A stretch of DNA of 64,000 bases, taken from assembly GCF_007846095.1 (NCBI RefSeq), contig NZ_VOEI01000005.1:1-64000 (forward strand), written 5' to 3'. Below, one piece after another: positions 3,658 to 49,134 of the stretch (positions are counted from its first letter, which is position 1; the number at the start of each line of letters is the position of its first letter). This stretch comes from Mucilaginibacter achroorhodeus. GTDB taxonomy: Bacteria; Bacteroidota; Bacteroidia; Sphingobacteriales; Sphingobacteriaceae. Below the pieces are notes generated by a model. The model was given only the letters and a program-made list of their open reading frames with translations. It did not search any database and was not told the DNA's origin. Made by a program: the position numbers and the translations under genes.

Positions 3658-3930
3658 ATGAAACACTTGGATATTACTGTTACGGGCAAAGTGCAGGGCG
3701 TGTTTTTCCGAAAATCAACCAAAGCAGTTGCCGACCAGTTAGGTGTGCGTGGCTTTGTACGTAATGAGGCCAACGGCGATGTTTTTATAGCTGCTGAAGC
3801 TGATGATGCAATCCTTGATATGTTTATGGATTGGTGTAACGAAGGCCCCGAGGATGCCAAAGTAACATCCGTAACAACCAATGAGGGCGAAGTGAAAAAC
3901 TATCGTAATTTTGAGGTAGTTAAAAAGTAA
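3658..3930 (+). CDS. acyP: Acylphosphatase
   Basis: A 90-residue acylphosphatase, the usual size, hydrolysing carboxyl-phosphate bonds of small acyl phosphates such as 1,3-bisphosphoglycerate. Both catalytic residues are present: R18 in GKVQGVFFRKS and N36 in RGFVRNEANG. It is a small cytosolic ferredoxin-like alpha/beta protein. A 145-bp AT-rich gap separates it from the amidohydrolase and only 23 nt separate it from the flippase gene, so the latter pair may be cotranscribed. A TAG-free frame and complete motifs indicate an intact gene. Confidence 0.95.
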   Translation: MKHLDITVTGKVQGVFFRKSTKAVADQLGVRGFVRNEANGDVFIAAEADDAILDMFMDWCNEGPEDAKVTSVTTNEGEVKNYRNFEVVKK

Positions 3931-3953
3931 TCTCAAACCACAGCAATCAGAAT

Positions 3954-5438
3954 TTGTCAACCGCTAAAAAATTTGCCGGCCAAACGGCTATATACGGTAC
4001 TACCACAGTTGTACAGCGTTTACTAAGCTCTTTACTTACACCACTGTATACCCGCGCTTATGACCCTAAAGTTTATAGCGTATTTAGTACCCTTTACAGC
4101 TATGCGGCAGTACTGCAAGCCTTGCTGGCTTTTGGCATGGAAACTACTTTTTTCCGTTACCTCAACAAGTACCCCGATCAAAAAAGGCAGGTTTACAATA
4201 ATAGCTTCTGGGTTGTTTTTTTAGTTACAATATTTTTTCTGCTATTTGCTGTTCCGTTTATACATACCATCGCAGGGTTCATAAAAATTGGTGAAAGAAC
4301 TTCGCAAGCCGAGTTTAAACGATATATCAAATACTTCTTATGCATCCTGGTAGTAGACGCCTGGTGCGCTATTCCGTTTGCAAAACTCCGCGCCGACGGC
4401 AGGCCACTTAAATATGGTGTTGCCAAGCTTGTTAATATTTCTGTAATGGTGGGGCTTAACCTCATATTTATTTGGGTGCTGCCATATATTGTTAATCACA
4501 ATATTGCCGGTGCCGAGTGGATAAAAACATGGTTTGTGAAAGGGTGGGTTGGATATGTTTTTATATCAAACCTGGTAGCAAGTATTGTTACGCTGTTATT
4601 ACTGCTGCCAGAGCTGCTAAAATTGCAATTGAGCTTTGATAAGGTGATGTTTAAAAACATGTTTGCCTACAGCTGGCCTGTAATGATAGCCGGATTATCC
4701 TACATCGTTAACGAAAATTTTGACAAGATACTTTTAGGCAAATTACTACCTGCCAACATCAGCGAACAGGAAGTTGGTATTTACTCGGCCTGCGCGCGCA
4801 TCTCAGTTTTCCTTAGCTTGTTCAACCAGGCCTTTCGGATGGGGGCCGAGCCATTCTTTTTTAGCCATGCTAAGAATAAAAATGCAGGCTACACCTACGC
4901 TAAAATAATGGACTATTTTGTGATAACCATGTGCCTAATGTTCCTTGGGGTGGTTGCAAATATTCAGATCCTCAAACATTATGTAAATAACCCGGCCTAT
5001 TGGGTAGGTTTAGGGGTTGTGCCGCCCCTTTTGTTGGGTTATGTTAGCCTGGGCATTTATACCAACCTTTCTATATGGTACAAACTGTCAGACCAAACCC
5101 GTTACGGGCTTTATATTTCCGGTATCGGCGCAGTGTTAACCATCGTTCTGAACGTTATTTTTATCCCCATATATAGTTACATGGCATCAGCGTGGATCTC
5201 GCTGGCTGCTTACGCAAGTATGATGATAATGTCATACATATGGGGGCAAAAGAATTATCCTATACCATATAATTTAAAGAAGAACGTCGCTTATATCGTT
5301 ATTTCAATAGTGCTGGTTTATCTTTCGTTCAGCGTATTTCACCGCAATATATTTATAGGTAACGGGTTATTATTATTGTTTGGCTTGGGCACTTTATATG
5401 CCGAGCGCAACCAATTAAAAGCTATATTGAAACGGTAA
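3954..5438 (+). CDS. Polysaccharide biosynthesis flippase (MOP/Wzx-like)
   Basis: A 494-residue integral membrane protein with about a dozen to fourteen hydrophobic helices, of the oligosaccharide flippase/PST branch of the MOP superfamily, which turns lipid-linked sugars across the inner membrane. The N-terminus STAKKFAGQTAIYGTTT followed by LTPLYTRAYDP is characteristic. No ATG is near; the natural start is TTG at 3954, which gives the usual family N-terminus. No glycosyltransferases surround it, so its substrate is unknown. It lies 16 nt before the TPR gene. Confidence 0.88.
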   Translation: MSTAKKFAGQTAIYGTTTVVQRLLSSLLTPLYTRAYDPKVYSVFSTLYSYAAVLQALLAFGMETTFFRYLNKYPDQKRQVYNNSFWVVFLVTIFFLLFAVPFIHTIAGFIKIGERTSQAEFKRYIKYFLCILVVDAWCAIPFAKLRADGRPLKYGVAKLVNISVMVGLNLIFIWVLPYIVNHNIAGAEWIKTWFVKGWVGYVFISNLVASIVTLLLLLPELLKLQLSFDKVMFKNMFAYSWPVMIAGLSYIVNENFDKILLGKLLPANISEQEVGIYSACARISVFLSLFNQAFRMGAEPFFFSHAKNKNAGYTYAKIMDYFVITMCLMFLGVVANIQILKHYVNNPAYWVGLGVVPPLLLGYVSLGIYTNLSIWYKLSDQTRYGLYISGIGAVLTIVLNVIFIPIYSYMASAWISLAAYASMMIMSYIWGQKNYPIPYNLKKNVAYIVISIVLVYLSFSVFHRNIFIGNGLLLLFGLGTLYAERNQLKAILKR

Positions 5439-24066: not shown

Positions 24067-24552
24067 TTGATTTTGAGAGACCAGCTAACATACAAACAAG
24101 CGTCGTTACCATCTTTAAAACAGGCAGCTCACGAATTATATCATAATTATGGAGCTATGCTGCTTGGGTATATTATGGAGGTAGTAAAAAACCGATCCGT
24201 GGCAGAAGGCTACCTTACCGACGTATTTTCGAGCCTCAATATAAACGATTTAGGTAAAATTACAGCCGACGGGCAAGGAAGCACTTATTGCCGCCTGCAA
24301 CAGCACACACGCAGTAAACTTACATCGTTTATTAACGCGGTAGATGATTGTCCGGATTCGCCTGTATCTAAAATATCAGGTCAGAACAAGATCATCAGCC
24401 AGATGAACGATGAGCAACAAACCGTTTTTTGCGGCGTTCATTATCATGGTAAAAGTGTGGCAATATTGAGCCGTGAGTTAAACAAAAGCAGCGACGAGAT
24501 AAAGCAGATTTTAAAGCAATCGTTCAACATAATCAGGAGCAACCGTAAATGA
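24067..24552 (+). CDS. Divergent ECF sigma-factor-like protein
   Basis: A 161-residue protein resembling an ECF sigma factor. Region 2 is recognisable at about 24-58 (LYHNYGAMLLGYIMEVVKN then AEGYLTDVF), and region 4 at about 112-158 (MNDEQQTVFCGVHYHGKSVAILSRELN with a following helix). Conserved aromatic and basic residues of promoter-melting region 2.3 look reduced, so it may be a weak or specialised sigma factor. The start is TTG at 24067 (a second in-frame TTG lies 6 nt on). Its stop overlaps the next ATG as ATGA, the usual sigma/anti-sigma coupling. Sigma identity is likely but not certain. Confidence 0.72.
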   Translation: MILRDQLTYKQASLPSLKQAAHELYHNYGAMLLGYIMEVVKNRSVAEGYLTDVFSSLNINDLGKITADGQGSTYCRLQQHTRSKLTSFINAVDDCPDSPVSKISGQNKIISQMNDEQQTVFCGVHYHGKSVAILSRELNKSSDEIKQILKQSFNIIRSNRK

Positions 24553-25046
24553 TACATCAGTACATTAACAGCGGCATTTTAGAAGCCTATGTAACAGGTT
24601 CTGCATCGGAGACCGAGGTAGAGGAGTTGCTACGCATGAAAGCCAGGCATCCTGAGGTGAATATCGCCTTGCAGGAGCTTGAAGCTGATATGGAATTTTT
24701 GGCCGGTAGGATGGCTGTTATGCCACCTGCGCGTACCTGGGACAAGATTTCTGATGAGATAGATGAGATCATGTTGCGCGAGAAAAAGGAGGTGAGTAAG
24801 TTTAGGCCGGCAAACCAACCAACCGAAGAGACTATACCCCCTGCTGGCCCAACCTATATAGAGGTTGAAGGGGCATCAAGCCACATGCGTATACACAAGG
24901 CGTGGAGGTGGGTGTTTGCTGCCGTGTTTGTGTTGGGCAAGATATTCTTAGCTTTTGCCATCTATTTTTATTTGGAAAACAGGCAAGCCCAAACTCAACT
25001 TAACGAGTTAAAGACGGAGATACAGCAGTTAAAGGGCAAACATTAA
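24549..25046 (+). CDS. Anti-sigma-factor-like single-pass membrane protein lacking a sensor domain
   Basis: A 165-residue protein coupled by a 4-bp overlap to the sigma-like gene. Residues 1-80 resemble the N-terminal sigma-binding zinc-less anti-sigma domain of RskA-type proteins (ILEAYVTGSASETEVEELL, PPARTWDKISDEI). One membrane helix lies near 117-141 (AWRWVFAAVFVLGKIFLAF). Only about 24 residues, a short leucine-zipper-like coil, lie beyond it, where typical anti-sigma proteins have a domain of 100 or more residues. The topology predicts the sigma-binding part in the cytoplasm. Role inferred from pairing and architecture. Confidence 0.75.
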   Translation: MIHQYINSGILEAYVTGSASETEVEELLRMKARHPEVNIALQELEADMEFLAGRMAVMPPARTWDKISDEIDEIMLREKKEVSKFRPANQPTEETIPPAGPTYIEVEGASSHMRIHKAWRWVFAAVFVLGKIFLAFAIYFYLENRQAQTQLNELKTEIQQLKGKH

Positions 25047-25110
25047 GTGTTTGAACGCATTTATTTTTCAATTTTTTTTAAACTTTCCCCACTCCGAATA
25101 GTTGTTTTTT

Positions 25111-25118
25111 AAAGGAGG
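25111..25118 (+). promoter_or_regulatory. Strong Shine-Dalgarno site AAAGGAGG
   Basis: AAAGGAGG is an almost full anti-16S match, 10 nt before the ATG at 25129. Strong SD sites are rare in Bacteroidota, where the 16S 3' end is normally hidden by ribosomal proteins, so it marks this start as unusual. Confidence 0.75.
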
Positions 25119-25128
25119 TTAATCACAC

Positions 25129-25287
25129 ATGGCAACATCACAGGAAAAAAACGAAGCGCAAGGTGAAGAAAAGGAAAGAGAGGAAAATTCCGATAAAAAA
25201 CTGGAAACGGAAATGCCCCTGAGTGAAAAAGATGAGGTGAAAAAAGCAGAGCATCAAACTAATAAGGATGCTGAAAAAAATCAATAA
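25129..25287 (+). CDS. Small highly charged protein, 52 residues
   Basis: A 52-codon gene beginning MATSQEKNEAQGEEK and ending with TAA at 25287. The product is almost entirely Glu, Lys, Asp, Asn and Gln with no hydrophobic core, so it should be disordered. Support for a real gene is the AAAGGAGG site, the stop-free frame ended by a strong terminator at 25294, and its position 82 bp after the anti-sigma-like gene. Similar small charged proteins accompany stress regulation in some bacteria, which is only analogy. I do not recognise the family. Confidence 0.68.
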   Translation: MATSQEKNEAQGEEKEREENSDKKLETEMPLSEKDEVKKAEHQTNKDAEKNQ

Positions 25288-25293
25288 ATAACA

Positions 25294-25321
25294 AAGTCCC
25301 GGGCCAAAAAGTCCGGGACTT
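25294..25321. terminator. Bidirectional terminator
   Basis: AAGTCCCGG at 25294-25302 pairs with CCGGGACTT at 25313-25321 around a 10-nt loop. It lies between the small charged gene and the convergent histidine kinase and could serve both. Confidence 0.85.
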
Positions 25322-25339: not shown

Positions 25340-27523
25340 TTAATTTAACATTACAGCGGCTCCTGTGAGAGCAGCGGTAACGTTGTCTATCAGGTTTTGT
25401 TCAGTAAATGGTTTAAGTATCACACCGTTTATACCTACTGACAGGTACTTGTCGCGGTCTTCCTTCAAAACATTGGCCGTTAATGCGAGAATGGGCAGAT
25501 CAGCCTTTTCCTGGTTGATATTTGCACGTATCAATTGTGTAAGTTCCATACCACCCATTTCAGGCATTTCAATATCTGTTAACACTGCGTCGTAATGGTT
25601 ATCTTCAAAGAGCTGCAATGCTTCACGGCCGTTTACAGCAACATCAAACGTAACGTTCCATTTTTTAAGGATGGTGCTTACTAAAAGCACGTTAAATTTG
25701 TTATCTTCTGCTATTAAAAGGTGTTTGCCTGCTATTACCTCGCGCGGATTAAGTTTAACCACCGGCTTTGCTTCCGTAATGCATTCTGTTTCCGTAACAA
25801 CATCCAGCGGTAACTTAAAACTGAAGACAGATCCCTTGCCCGGTTTGCTTGTTACCTTAATGCTTCCGCCCTGCAACTCAACTATCTTTTTACAAATGGC
25901 AAGTCCTAAGCCTGTACCGCCGTAGTTAGCAGCTTTTTGGGCAGCTGCTACTTGAGAGAATTCTTCAAAGATTAATGGGAGGTGTTCTTTATCTATACCC
26001 AGGCCGGTATCTTTTACCTGTACGTTCAGTACCCTTTGCCCAGGGTTCTCCTTGGTAAGGAATGCCTTTATGGTAACGCCGCCGGCAGGGGTAAATTTGA
26101 TAGCATTGCTGGTAAGGTTCATGATCACCTGCTTAAGCCTGAAATAATCGCCGGTAAGGCAAAAATCGGGATTAAACTCAATATCGTGTTTTAGGTATAT
26201 GTTCTTCTTAGCGGCCTGTACCTGCATACTGGTCACAATTTCATTTATGGCATCATAAGGTTTCAAGGGCTGATGCTCAAAATTCATTTTGCCGGTCTCG
26301 TATTTAGAGAAATCAAGAATCTCGTTCACTACCTCAAGCAGCATTTTTGATGAACTGCGTATCGCGTTGGTCTGTTCTATTTGCGTTTCGTCTAATCGGC
26401 TTTGGGTAAGTTGTTCAGAAAAACCGATGATGGAATTAAGCGGCGTACGGATCTCATGGCTCATGGCCGCAAGGAAGCGGCTTTTTTGTAAAGCGTATTT
26501 CTCTGCCATTTCGCTGTGCAATACCATTTCTTCCTCGTTGCGGAATATCTTCCAGATATTGTAAAGGATGATAACAACAACGGTGGTCATTAGCAGGAAA
26601 ATTGCCCCTGTTAACTTTCTGAACTCATACATTACCGTAGCCAGATTCGAGTTCAATTCTTTTTTACTGCCGGCGATATATTGGTTCTCTGCTGTTTTAT
26701 ACTTTTTTAAACTGTTGATGATCTGGCTTATTAACCTGTTGTTTATCTCCAGCATCTGGCGCTCAGAATCACGCAGTTTGTTGTTGGCTTCAGATATTTT
26801 GCTATAATACTTATCATACTCCTGGGCCACCTTGGGTGTGGCAACCATAGTGGTGATAACCGTATCGGTACGCTTTTCTACCAGTACGGGGGCGGGTTTA
26901 TTTGTCTGATCAGTTTTCTTTTTACCTCCGAATACAGAAAATAGCCTTCCAAAGAACTTTTTCTTTTTTTCAGGAGCTGCCGCCACAGTCGTTTTAATGG
27001 TATCTATTTTAATATTCGTTTTTATCCGCCTGATCACCGGTTGCTTAACCAGCTTTTTATCGCGGGTTTGCATGGCGGTATTGATAAGCTTTGCCGAATT
27101 GATCAAACTATCAGACAACGTCATCAGCCTTACGTAGTTAGTAGCACTATTTGCCTTCGCGTTTATCAACGCCTTTAGTGCACTATCTTCTTCTGTGTAA
27201 GTTGTGTTTTTATCATTGTAGTTCATTTTGGCGATAATTGCCCTAACGTTTTTGATCTGCCTGGAAAACTCTTTAGAGTAATATTTTTTACCGGTAAGTG
27301 CAAACATACGGCTGTTGTTATCTGCACTGTAAAGCTCAACTATGCAGCTATCTATGAGGGTGGAGTTCTCTCTGGCAGCAACCATCTTCTGGAAATTGGA
27401 ACGCAACTTTTCGGCTTTACTGTAATGGAGATAGAGGTAAAAAGCACCACCGAATAAAACAACAATCAGCATTACTATGGTGAGGTAACGCAGAATGGGT
27501 ATCTTTTTTACATTAGAAAACAT
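25340..27523 (-). CDS. Hybrid sensor histidine kinase with receiver domain
   Basis: The 727-residue hybrid kinase has a membrane helix at about 12-33, a periplasmic sensor region of roughly 270 residues, a second helix at about 304-326, HisKA with phospho-acceptor H356 (MSHEIRTPLN), an HATPase_c domain (DTGLGIDKE, GGTGLGLAICKKIV) and a C-terminal receiver with D650 in LTDIEMPEMGG. No HAMP or PAS linker is seen. The sensor region contains a Lys-rich amphipathic stretch (EKKKKFFGRLFSVFGGKKK, 185-203) that is odd for an extracytoplasmic domain. No partner regulator lies directly adjacent. The ligand is unknown. Confidence 0.92.
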   Translation of the reverse strand: MFSNVKKIPILRYLTIVMLIVVLFGGAFYLYLHYSKAEKLRSNFQKMVAARENSTLIDSCIVELYSADNNSRMFALTGKKYYSKEFSRQIKNVRAIIAKMNYNDKNTTYTEEDSALKALINAKANSATNYVRLMTLSDSLINSAKLINTAMQTRDKKLVKQPVIRRIKTNIKIDTIKTTVAAAPEKKKKFFGRLFSVFGGKKKTDQTNKPAPVLVEKRTDTVITTMVATPKVAQEYDKYYSKISEANNKLRDSERQMLEINNRLISQIINSLKKYKTAENQYIAGSKKELNSNLATVMYEFRKLTGAIFLLMTTVVVIILYNIWKIFRNEEEMVLHSEMAEKYALQKSRFLAAMSHEIRTPLNSIIGFSEQLTQSRLDETQIEQTNAIRSSSKMLLEVVNEILDFSKYETGKMNFEHQPLKPYDAINEIVTSMQVQAAKKNIYLKHDIEFNPDFCLTGDYFRLKQVIMNLTSNAIKFTPAGGVTIKAFLTKENPGQRVLNVQVKDTGLGIDKEHLPLIFEEFSQVAAAQKAANYGGTGLGLAICKKIVELQGGSIKVTSKPGKGSVFSFKLPLDVVTETECITEAKPVVKLNPREVIAGKHLLIAEDNKFNVLLVSTILKKWNVTFDVAVNGREALQLFEDNHYDAVLTDIEMPEMGGMELTQLIRANINQEKADLPILALTANVLKEDRDKYLSVGINGVILKPFTEQNLIDNVTAALTGAAVMLN

Positions 27524-47220: not shown

Positions 47221-48397
47221 ATGATGGTGCGGTTTGGCTGTAAAATTTCTCCATTAATCTGTTTATTTCAATAAGTTCGGCATCTGATACTTTTGTCTGG
47301 TGCAACACAAAGCGCATATGGTTGATAAGATCATGGCCCAGCTTTTCGTCTACACCGGTTTTCTTTATAAAAACGTTCAGAAAATCATTATCAAACGTGC
47401 CGGTTTTTAAGTTGTAAGTATTGCGCAGGTGTTCTAAAAAATAGGTGATCTTTTTAACGGCTATGTCGGTATTATCGCGCTGCTCGTAATACAGGTTGCC
47501 TACCACAGTGACAAAGCCTAAGGTGGCATTCTTTAAAGGATCAACAACAGGTATGGGGCGTTGCCTGCGTTTGATGTTGTACAAAACAAACAGCAGGGTA
47601 GCCGCCAGGCTGATGTAGTAGGCCCATTGCAGGCCGGGATGCCTGAAGAATACCCGCATGGGCGATTCGTCTTCCAAAATGTCGCCGTTCTGATATTGGT
47701 CCCAATAAATATGGTCAGAAGTAGGAATGTAGGATAAAACCCTGTCTGCAAATGCTGCACCACCGGGTTTAACCATGCAGTAATTGGTAAGCAACTGCGG
47801 GTTGGCCATTACCAACAAACTGCCCTTGCCAAAATTGTATTTAAGATAGGTAGCGTGTTTGTAGTTGTTTTGTGCAAGAACTACAGCTTTTGTGGTGTCA
47901 AATGACGAAAAGTATTGTGTGGCTGTAAACTTATCTGTTTTAAGGTCTGCGGCTTGTTTGATCTTTGGATTGGTAAAATTTACAGATGGATTTTTCTTAT
48001 CAAACTCATAGCCGGTGTTCACCTTAAGCGAATCAGTAAGTGCGCCATCCCAATTCAAAGCCGATATAAATACCGTATTGCCGGCGCTAATGTACTTTAA
48101 TAGCGCTTTAGTGTCTGTTTTGTTGAAACTGGCAGTTTTGGCAATAATGATGTAGTTGCCGCTTTGTAAAGAAGAATCGGTAAACACATCATAAGGCGAT
48201 TGGTTGGTACGCTTGATTGTTGCATCCGGAAAAATATCCTTGACCCTGTCAAAAAGAATAAAATTACCAAACGGTGCTTTGCTGTTGTAACGCAGATCAA
48301 CCTGCCAGTTAATAGGGGCCGGTTTATTATATTCTGCCACCAGGTAAACAGTTAGCAGCACCAATATGCCGATGATGTAGAATTTAAGATCTTTCAT
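47210..48397 (-). CDS. DUF4350 domain membrane protein
   Basis: A 395-residue protein with an N-terminal membrane helix (about 6-22), a periplasmic DUF4350 domain (APFGNFILFDRVKDIF, GKGSLLVMANPQLLTNY) resembling class I glutamine-amidotransferase-like folds without catalytic Cys, a second helix (AYYISLAATLLFVLYNI, about 260-277) and a helical cytoplasmic tail. It overlaps the following DUF4129 gene by 4 bp. Role in the MoxR module is unknown. Confidence 0.88.
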   Translation of the reverse strand: MKDLKFYIIGILVLLTVYLVAEYNKPAPINWQVDLRYNSKAPFGNFILFDRVKDIFPDATIKRTNQSPYDVFTDSSLQSGNYIIIAKTASFNKTDTKALLKYISAGNTVFISALNWDGALTDSLKVNTGYEFDKKNPSVNFTNPKIKQAADLKTDKFTATQYFSSFDTTKAVVLAQNNYKHATYLKYNFGKGSLLVMANPQLLTNYCMVKPGGAAFADRVLSYIPTSDHIYWDQYQNGDILEDESPMRVFFRHPGLQWAYYISLAATLLFVLYNIKRRQRPIPVVDPLKNATLGFVTVVGNLYYEQRDNTDIAVKKITYFLEHLRNTYNLKTGTFDNDFLNVFIKKTGVDEKLGHDLINHMRFVLHQTKVSDAELIEINRLMEKFYSQTAPSYGK

Positions 48398-49134
48398 GGT
48401 CGGCCTCCTTTAAAATCAGCAAACAGTTTGGTGATTTGGCTATAACCGCTTCCGGTCACAGCGAAATCGCCGTACCAAACATATTCAAACTGCCGGGTAA
48501 TGTTTTTGAAAGGGCCTTGCGCAGGGTTATTGTTCAACTCCTGTACATAGGCCTGGTTAGTTTTATTAGGCTGCCAGTCTATTAAATTATTATCGCTTAA
48601 TTGCTTAAGAGCCCTTAAGTATAGCAGCCGCACAGCAAGTTTGTAGTTACCTGCAGAAGCAGCTGTCTCAATATCTTTTTCAAAATCTATCTCGTGTATA
48701 TTCTCGTCAAGTTCGGTATAAGCTATACCTGCTTTACGTGCCCCTTTGCGGAAGATATTGATATCGATACCGGCAGATTTAAGTATTACCAGTATCAATG
48801 CGGCAATGCCGCCTATCATTATTATGTATTTTATTAGCACCCCTGCCCATTTCCAAAAATTGGAATAGCCGGTTTTGGTTTTACCCCAATCAAACAAACT
48901 CCAGAACCATCGCCAAAATCTTGTCCATAAAGATGGGCCGCTATAATCATCTTTGTAAATAAACTCCTTTTGTTTTTTGTAGTTATTGATAGCTGCTGTA
49001 TCTATATGTCGCAACGTAACAGATGCAGTATCCAACCTTATTACAGCCGGTACCTTTTTGGCCGCAATAGTATCGGGCTTAGCATTAGCTATTGAAGCGG
49101 TTAGTAAGAGAAAGATAAGGAGCAGGTAACGCAT
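48394..49134 (-). CDS. DUF4129 domain membrane protein
   Basis: A 246-residue protein: signal peptide or anchor (MRYLLLIFLLLTASIANAKP), an aromatic segment SLWTRFWRWFWSLFDWGK, one membrane helix near 100-120 and a cytoplasmic DUF4129 region (NYKLAVRLLYLRALKQLSD, QFEYVWYGDFAV). DUF4129 proteins accompany MoxR/DUF58 in many phyla. It overlaps DUF4350 by 4 bp and the upstream gene by 1 bp. Confidence 0.88.
   Translation of the reverse strand: MRYLLLIFLLLTASIANAKPDTIAAKKVPAVIRLDTASVTLRHIDTAAINNYKKQKEFIYKDDYSGPSLWTRFWRWFWSLFDWGKTKTGYSNFWKWAGVLIKYIIMIGGIAALILVILKSAGIDINIFRKGARKAGIAYTELDENIHEIDFEKDIETAASAGNYKLAVRLLYLRALKQLSDNNLIDWQPNKTNQAYVQELNNNPAQGPFKNITRQFEYVWYGDFAVTGSGYSQITKLFADFKGGRP

Follow-up and report, generated by a model that had tools for sequence, protein, structure and literature searches.

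To our knowledge, autoregulation of rpsU is the only well-established use of Shine-Dalgarno (SD) pairing in Bacteroidota. On the transcriptional side, ECF sigma promoters carry GAAC or AAAC at −35 and GTT or CGT at −10, with transcription starting 7–9 nt after the −10 block, and among small hydrophilic stress proteins the hydrophilin- or CsbD-like proteins are familiar examples. In the rpsU system of Bacteroidota, where SDs are mostly avoided, one gene with a short leader carries a strong, extended SD that pairs with the 16S tail (McNutt et al. 2023, PMC9976891). In that study, rpsU is by set criteria the clear strongest SD gene in nearly all Sphingobacteriales, exceptional extended pairing of the rpsU type amounts to 9 to 13 pairs and −14 to −21 kcal/mol, and a later criterion places exceptional SDs below −13 (PMC9976891). 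For SD genes overall, a survey gives 1% in Pedobacter cryoconitis and 2% in Sphingobacterium mizutaii (PMC10783764).

Here we describe a small gene from a 64,000-nucleotide stretch of Mucilaginibacter DNA (the window), located in contig 10 of 14 of a 4.28 Mb genome. It resembles rpsU as a single gene whose short predicted leader carries a strong SD complementary to the 16S tail, within a lineage where SDs are mostly avoided; unlike rpsU, it encodes a non-ribosomal protein, forms 9 pairs rather than the 12 of rpsU in the same genome, carries its SD in some lineages only and has no known feedback logic. With ECF sigma-dependent promoters it shares two short blocks separated by 16–17 nt and suitably placed relative to the start codon, although a wider regulon was not found in its own genome and the promoter class is read from sequence. 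The product resembles small hydrophilic stress proteins in being small, highly charged and, by prediction, mostly disordered, but it matches no curated model and contains one glycine only. Our preferred reading, which we regard as evenly balanced, is that the gene forms a one-gene unit in which an ECF-type promoter is joined by a lineage-specific SD acting as a second, translational input. The features of the locus are as follows.

24067–24552, + strand: degenerate ECF sigma-like gene, likely start TTG 24073; a neighbour, probably not the controller
24549–25046, + strand: gene for an anti-sigma-like protein, neighbour of the small gene
25079–25083, + strand: −35-like element TAAAC of a putative ECF-type promoter, from pattern match and leader alignment
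25100–25103, + strand: −10-like element AGTT, 16 nt after TAAAC and 25 nt before the ATG
25111–25119, + strand: Shine-Dalgarno sequence AAAGGAGGT, forming 9 pairs with the 16S tail, −13.1 kcal/mol, left unpaired in the predicted fold
25129–25287, + strand: gene for the small charged protein of 52 aa, ATG 25129, stop 25285–25287, core LETEMPLSEKDEVKKAE, predicted helix 33–50
25294–25321, between two convergent genes, no strand assigned: intrinsic terminator, scanned on the + strand, with 11 pairs and a T-rich tail on +
25340–27523, − strand: hybrid histidine kinase/response regulator, convergent neighbour of the small gene

The small gene, its product and its neighbours

The first-pass annotation of the window had called a small charged gene of 52 residues at 25129, and this gene is real, being encoded in 50 of the 120 genomes searched (its own included), all of the same genus. 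A family-wide profile search of 201 genomes recovered it in 42, representing 6 of 25 genera, and 31 of the 34 named loci with the gene belong to Mucilaginibacter, the same-genus G057 (contig of L003 and L070) among them. Half of the residues of the protein are charged and its pI is 4.7. Among orthologs, the core around PLSEKDEVKKAE, LxTExPLSEKDEVKKAE, is nearly fixed and the N-terminal part is variable; M1, P30, E33, D35, E36, K38, A40 and E41 are shared by all of 29 sequences. Compared with the two nearest relatives, L003 and L072, the core protein is identical while synonymous sites differ.

Searches of the window protein against Pfam, NCBIfam and PHROGs returned no match, no relative of the family profile was found among PDB chains, and DUF3914 was matched weakly (E 0.087) by one of 29 family members; this is a conserved small-protein family that is nameless in the libraries searched. 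A structure model built from 29 rows contained one helix, at residues 33–50, with the remainder at low confidence (mean pLDDT 72.4, pTM 0.32), and the protein is predicted to be largely disordered with a conserved C-terminal helix. Our best guess at a role, which is a prediction, would be that of a hydrophilic protein induced by stress, whose helix would bind a partner. In M. aurantiaciroseus, locus L068 (~3896–4132, in the same genome as L177) has part of an anti-sigma-like N-terminus fused to the small-protein core, and the membrane part and the leader are gone.

The small gene and the convergent histidine kinase had been said to share a terminator, and a hairpin scan confirmed one at 25294–25321, whose opposite side is T-rich as well by eye. 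The label of a sigma/anti-sigma pair for the genes upstream was fair but weak, as both ORFs fall under curated cut-offs: the sigma-like ORF scored 21.8 bits against a Pfam cut-off of 24.1, and the best anti-sigma model gave the anti-sigma-like ORF 32.1 against a cut-off of 100. By eye, TTG 24073 as the apparent start of the sigma-like gene is common to 11 of 13 aligned relatives.

The Shine-Dalgarno sequence among orthologs

The SD had been reported 10 nt before the ATG, and it stands there: in the local sequence TTTTTTAAAGGAGGTTAATCACACATGGCA, read at the SD and start of the small gene, 10 nt separate the end of AGGAGG from ATG 25129. AAAGGAGG covers the 8 nt at 25111–25118, and T25119 adds the ninth pair. 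Two exact patterns found no 16S tail in the own assembly; in two other genomes of the genus the tail is GGAATACCTCCTTTCTGGAG, which fits the SD and against which pairing energies were computed. The window leader pairs with it at −13.1 kcal/mol over 9 pairs and at correct spacing, as a strong SD does; set against the published 9 to 13 pairs and −14 to −21 kcal/mol, obtained with a different energy program, these values are borderline for extended pairing. In the same genome, rpsU reaches −18.7 over the same stretch and −21.9 over a wider one that takes in the full rpsU SD, and the small-gene SD is close in strength to that of hpf (−12.2).

At −9 kcal/mol, SDs were not enriched in the own genome: 13 of 363 genes had one, compared with 16 of 363 for mock sites. 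The arrangement AAAGGAGG-N4-14-ATG occurred 33 times against 14 for a reversed-pattern control, a modest excess in which one repeat supplies part of the 33. Strong SDs thus being not generally enriched, it is conservation, and not strength alone, that distinguishes the family.

After duplicate removal, 64 loci yielded 52 distinct ortholog leaders, and omission of the fused gene L068 left 51 for the SD count, with starts shifted by hand for L072, L073, L077, L080, L084 and L087. These leaders fall into two sets: 12 have energies of −9.1 kcal/mol or lower and 39 have energies of −4.8 or higher, leaving an empty gap in between. On a tree of 34 rows built on neighbouring proteins, in which many data are missing and 13 of 31 inner branches are open, the window falls within a clade of 11 rows with support of 99/99, in which 8 of the 10 readable leaders carry the SD and the window's sisters, L003 and L072, are without it. 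Parsimony requires four changes of SD state over 33 tree rows, as a raw count. Across the 8 clade leaders with an SD, the five GGAGG columns are invariant, as is the A of the −10 block, while most columns on either side of GGAGG vary. Further orthologs carried an SD in 4 of 15 cases, two of the four in another genus. This further set came from 30 profile-search loci, of which 9 had been counted before, and 6 of the remaining 21 rows repeated counted genomes; the starts of L182 and L185, used as called, are probably too early.

With 12 of 51 and then 4 of 15 further orthologs carrying it, the SD does not show the order-wide conservation seen in rpsU. By the first-pass annotation, absence of the SD from homologs in related genomes would speak against its proposal; the outcome is mixed, as the two nearest relatives lack the SD but the other readable clade members and some more distant lineages have it. 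The orthologs, with 12 of 51 at −9.1 or lower, compare with 8 of 220 leader-type control genes of the own genome and 0 of 159 from relatives at or below −9, these controls coming from a rough gene caller (ORFs of at least 110 aa, first ATG), and conservation at this level argues that the SD is more than a chance match. The SD of the small gene is real and kept in a clade, and its pattern of columns and states points to a lineage-specific element that, within the window's clade, selection maintains at the start site.

The putative upstream promoter

A two-block element upstream of the SD, absent from the first-pass annotation, is better conserved across orthologs than the SD itself. The exact form (T/G)AAAC-N16/17-AGTT was found within 90 nt in 25 of 52 orthologs, counted with unshifted starts, against 0 of 583 control genes (0 of 363 own, 0 of 220 from relatives). 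About half of the orthologs are without an exact match, and the exact form occurs in SD-less orthologs too. In the 12 SD-bearing leaders the distance from the element to the ATG is 21–27 nt (read by eye in L073), with GGTT replacing AGTT in L005 and L011. Two SD-bearing orthologs from the sister genus gave no promoter match within 80 nt, and one of these, L176, reads GAAAC-N16-CGTT by eye. The family thus has conserved −35 and −10 blocks at fixed spacing upstream, as ECF targets do, and we take (T/G)AAAC...AGTT of the small gene to be the ECF sigma promoter form. With a transcription start 7–9 nt after AGTT, the leader would be ~18 nt long and would place the SD at the 5' end of the mRNA.

Eight strict two-block matches occur in the 64-kb window, and only that at 25079 is linked to a start. 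Searching the own genome with up to 3 mismatches gave 60 sites against 77 in the control, with no excess, and a stricter pattern gave 3 against 6. We read 33 of these 63 own-genome sites, one of them the site of the small gene itself. Of the other 32, 19 fall entirely within an ORF of at least 100 aa, 9 straddle an ORF edge and 4 are outside; three of the 32 (L113, L123 and L126, with three mismatches each) are situated within 100 nt before an ORF. A separate look at nine promoter-like sites gave the same picture. No second clear promoter of the ECF-type pattern was found in the own genome, and the ECF reading therefore draws on the small-gene family only. A wider own-genome regulon of this promoter was discarded as a candidate, since pattern counts do not exceed controls.

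Rival readings, bS21 and hpf

The small gene had been proposed as a stress output of the adjacent sigma-like operon, a reading that we find quite improbable, although 11 of 34 named loci have the sigma-like/anti-sigma-like pair immediately before the small gene, and 33 of 40 genomes chosen for containing the small gene also contain the sigma-like gene. The other 7 genomes lack the sigma-like gene; three of them (G067, G022 and G042) keep the exact promoter, and in G006 (88% complete) it differs by a single change. It was not found in G009 (58% complete) nor, by the same test, in G182 and G139 (another genus), G182 reading GAAAC-N16-CGTT by eye. Because genomes lacking the sigma-like gene keep the promoter, the neighbour is not needed to maintain it. 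Moreover, the sigma-like gene itself is preceded in most aligned relatives (by eye) by a TAnnTTTG-type promoter, a housekeeping-type motif, unlike that of the small gene. The sigma-like domain is also degenerate, and elsewhere the two genes lie on separate contigs or far apart, so that the neighbouring sigma-like gene is, on comparative grounds, an unlikely controller.

For the SD, a functionless chance match would fit its absence from the nearest relatives and the parity of SD and mock SD at −9, but the same GGAGG at the same place in 8 members of the clade whose flanking sequence has diverged, the clear separation of ortholog energies and the few state changes on the tree make it very improbable; conservation largely refutes it. 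We take more seriously, without holding it probable, that the SD acts as an ordinary booster of the start site of a first gene whose leader is very short, serving normal ribosomes or working through a lack of local structure, with no bS21 sensing. The predicted leader is indeed very short, the SD is unpaired in the predicted fold, and strong SDs also stand on some operon genes and on rpsB of the own genome, so that some SD use may be routine in the order. SD-less orthologs with equally short leaders exist, however, and in wild-type F. johnsoniae a tuf reporter with the strong SD AGGAGGU gave somewhat lower output than one without it (PMC9976891).

Our preferred reading, of an ECF-type promoter with a translational input, would run as follows. 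The small gene, found in Mucilaginibacter and some related genera, would be a one-gene transcription unit with a dedicated TAAAC-N16-AGTT promoter, read, to go by its sequence, by a sigma factor probably other than the neighbour. The short mRNA leader would begin at or just before the SD, which in the window's clade would most likely provide the second, translational input: by analogy with the F. johnsoniae reporters, normal ribosomes, with their 16S tail held by bS21, bS18 and bS6, would use it weakly, and free-tail ribosomes would use it better. Since gene and promoter persist without it, the SD would be an optional add-on. Counted against this explanation are the missing SD in L003, L072 and 39 of 51 orthologs, and an SD much weaker than that of rpsU in the same genome.

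PMC9976891 describes a more than two-fold rise of the tuf reporter with AGGAGGU in a bS21 delta-C strain, and since strong-SD reporters respond to bS21 loss in this way, control of the small gene by free 16S tails or bS21 is possible by analogy. The own genome has components that bS21-linked control requires, namely an extended SD of 12 bp on rpsU and, in bS21, Tyr at residue 54, the residue mutated in the F. johnsoniae study (PMC9976891); the link to the small gene we infer. In a survey of 30 genomes picked by choice, rpsU was readable in 29, with an SD at or below −19.5 in all 29, and residue 54 was Tyr in 29 of 29 readable genomes. hpf was readable in 27 of the 30, and its SD was at or below −10.3 in 27 of 27, whether the small-gene SD was present or not. 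At L132 (G000:C1:459165-460737) the order is rpsU, XerC-like recombinase, hpf, with the hpf SD AAAAAGGAGG 4 nt before the ATG, and Pfam confirms the HPF, bS21 and intervening recombinase families. The main text of PMC9976891 contains no occurrence of 'hpf', 'hibernation' is absent from the main text of PMC10783764 in the parts covered, and the titles and abstract openings searched contained nothing on the small gene or the hpf SD.

A broader proposal, speculative and in our estimation unlikely, is that bS21-short ribosomes of Sphingobacteriaceae read a strong-SD set comprising rpsU, hpf from the same operon and, in some lineages, this small stress-type protein, which together would form a translational regulon sensing ribosome completeness; rpsU would then serve to restore bS21, and hpf to park incomplete ribosomes. 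A non-ribosomal family that has retained its SD in one clade but not in a sister branch, where it was lost, is a natural experiment, in which the same gene and promoter with and without an SD could show whether free 16S tails steer other mRNAs, and the conserved hpf SD extends the same question to ribosome hibernation.

rpsB (L188, G000:C13:136000-140000; Pfam Ribosomal_S2) also starts behind AAAGGAGG, in agreement with the list of SD-bearing ribosomal genes in PMC9976891. Within the window, a second start behind AAAGGAGG lies at 48395–48411 on the − strand and belongs to a 395-aa protein, with a 4-nt overlap between its start and the gene before it. Finally, L032, L041, L048, L057 and L060 share the same AAAGGAGGCTATCATGAATG repeat ~100 bases from five contig ends, which is perhaps the element that broke the assembly.
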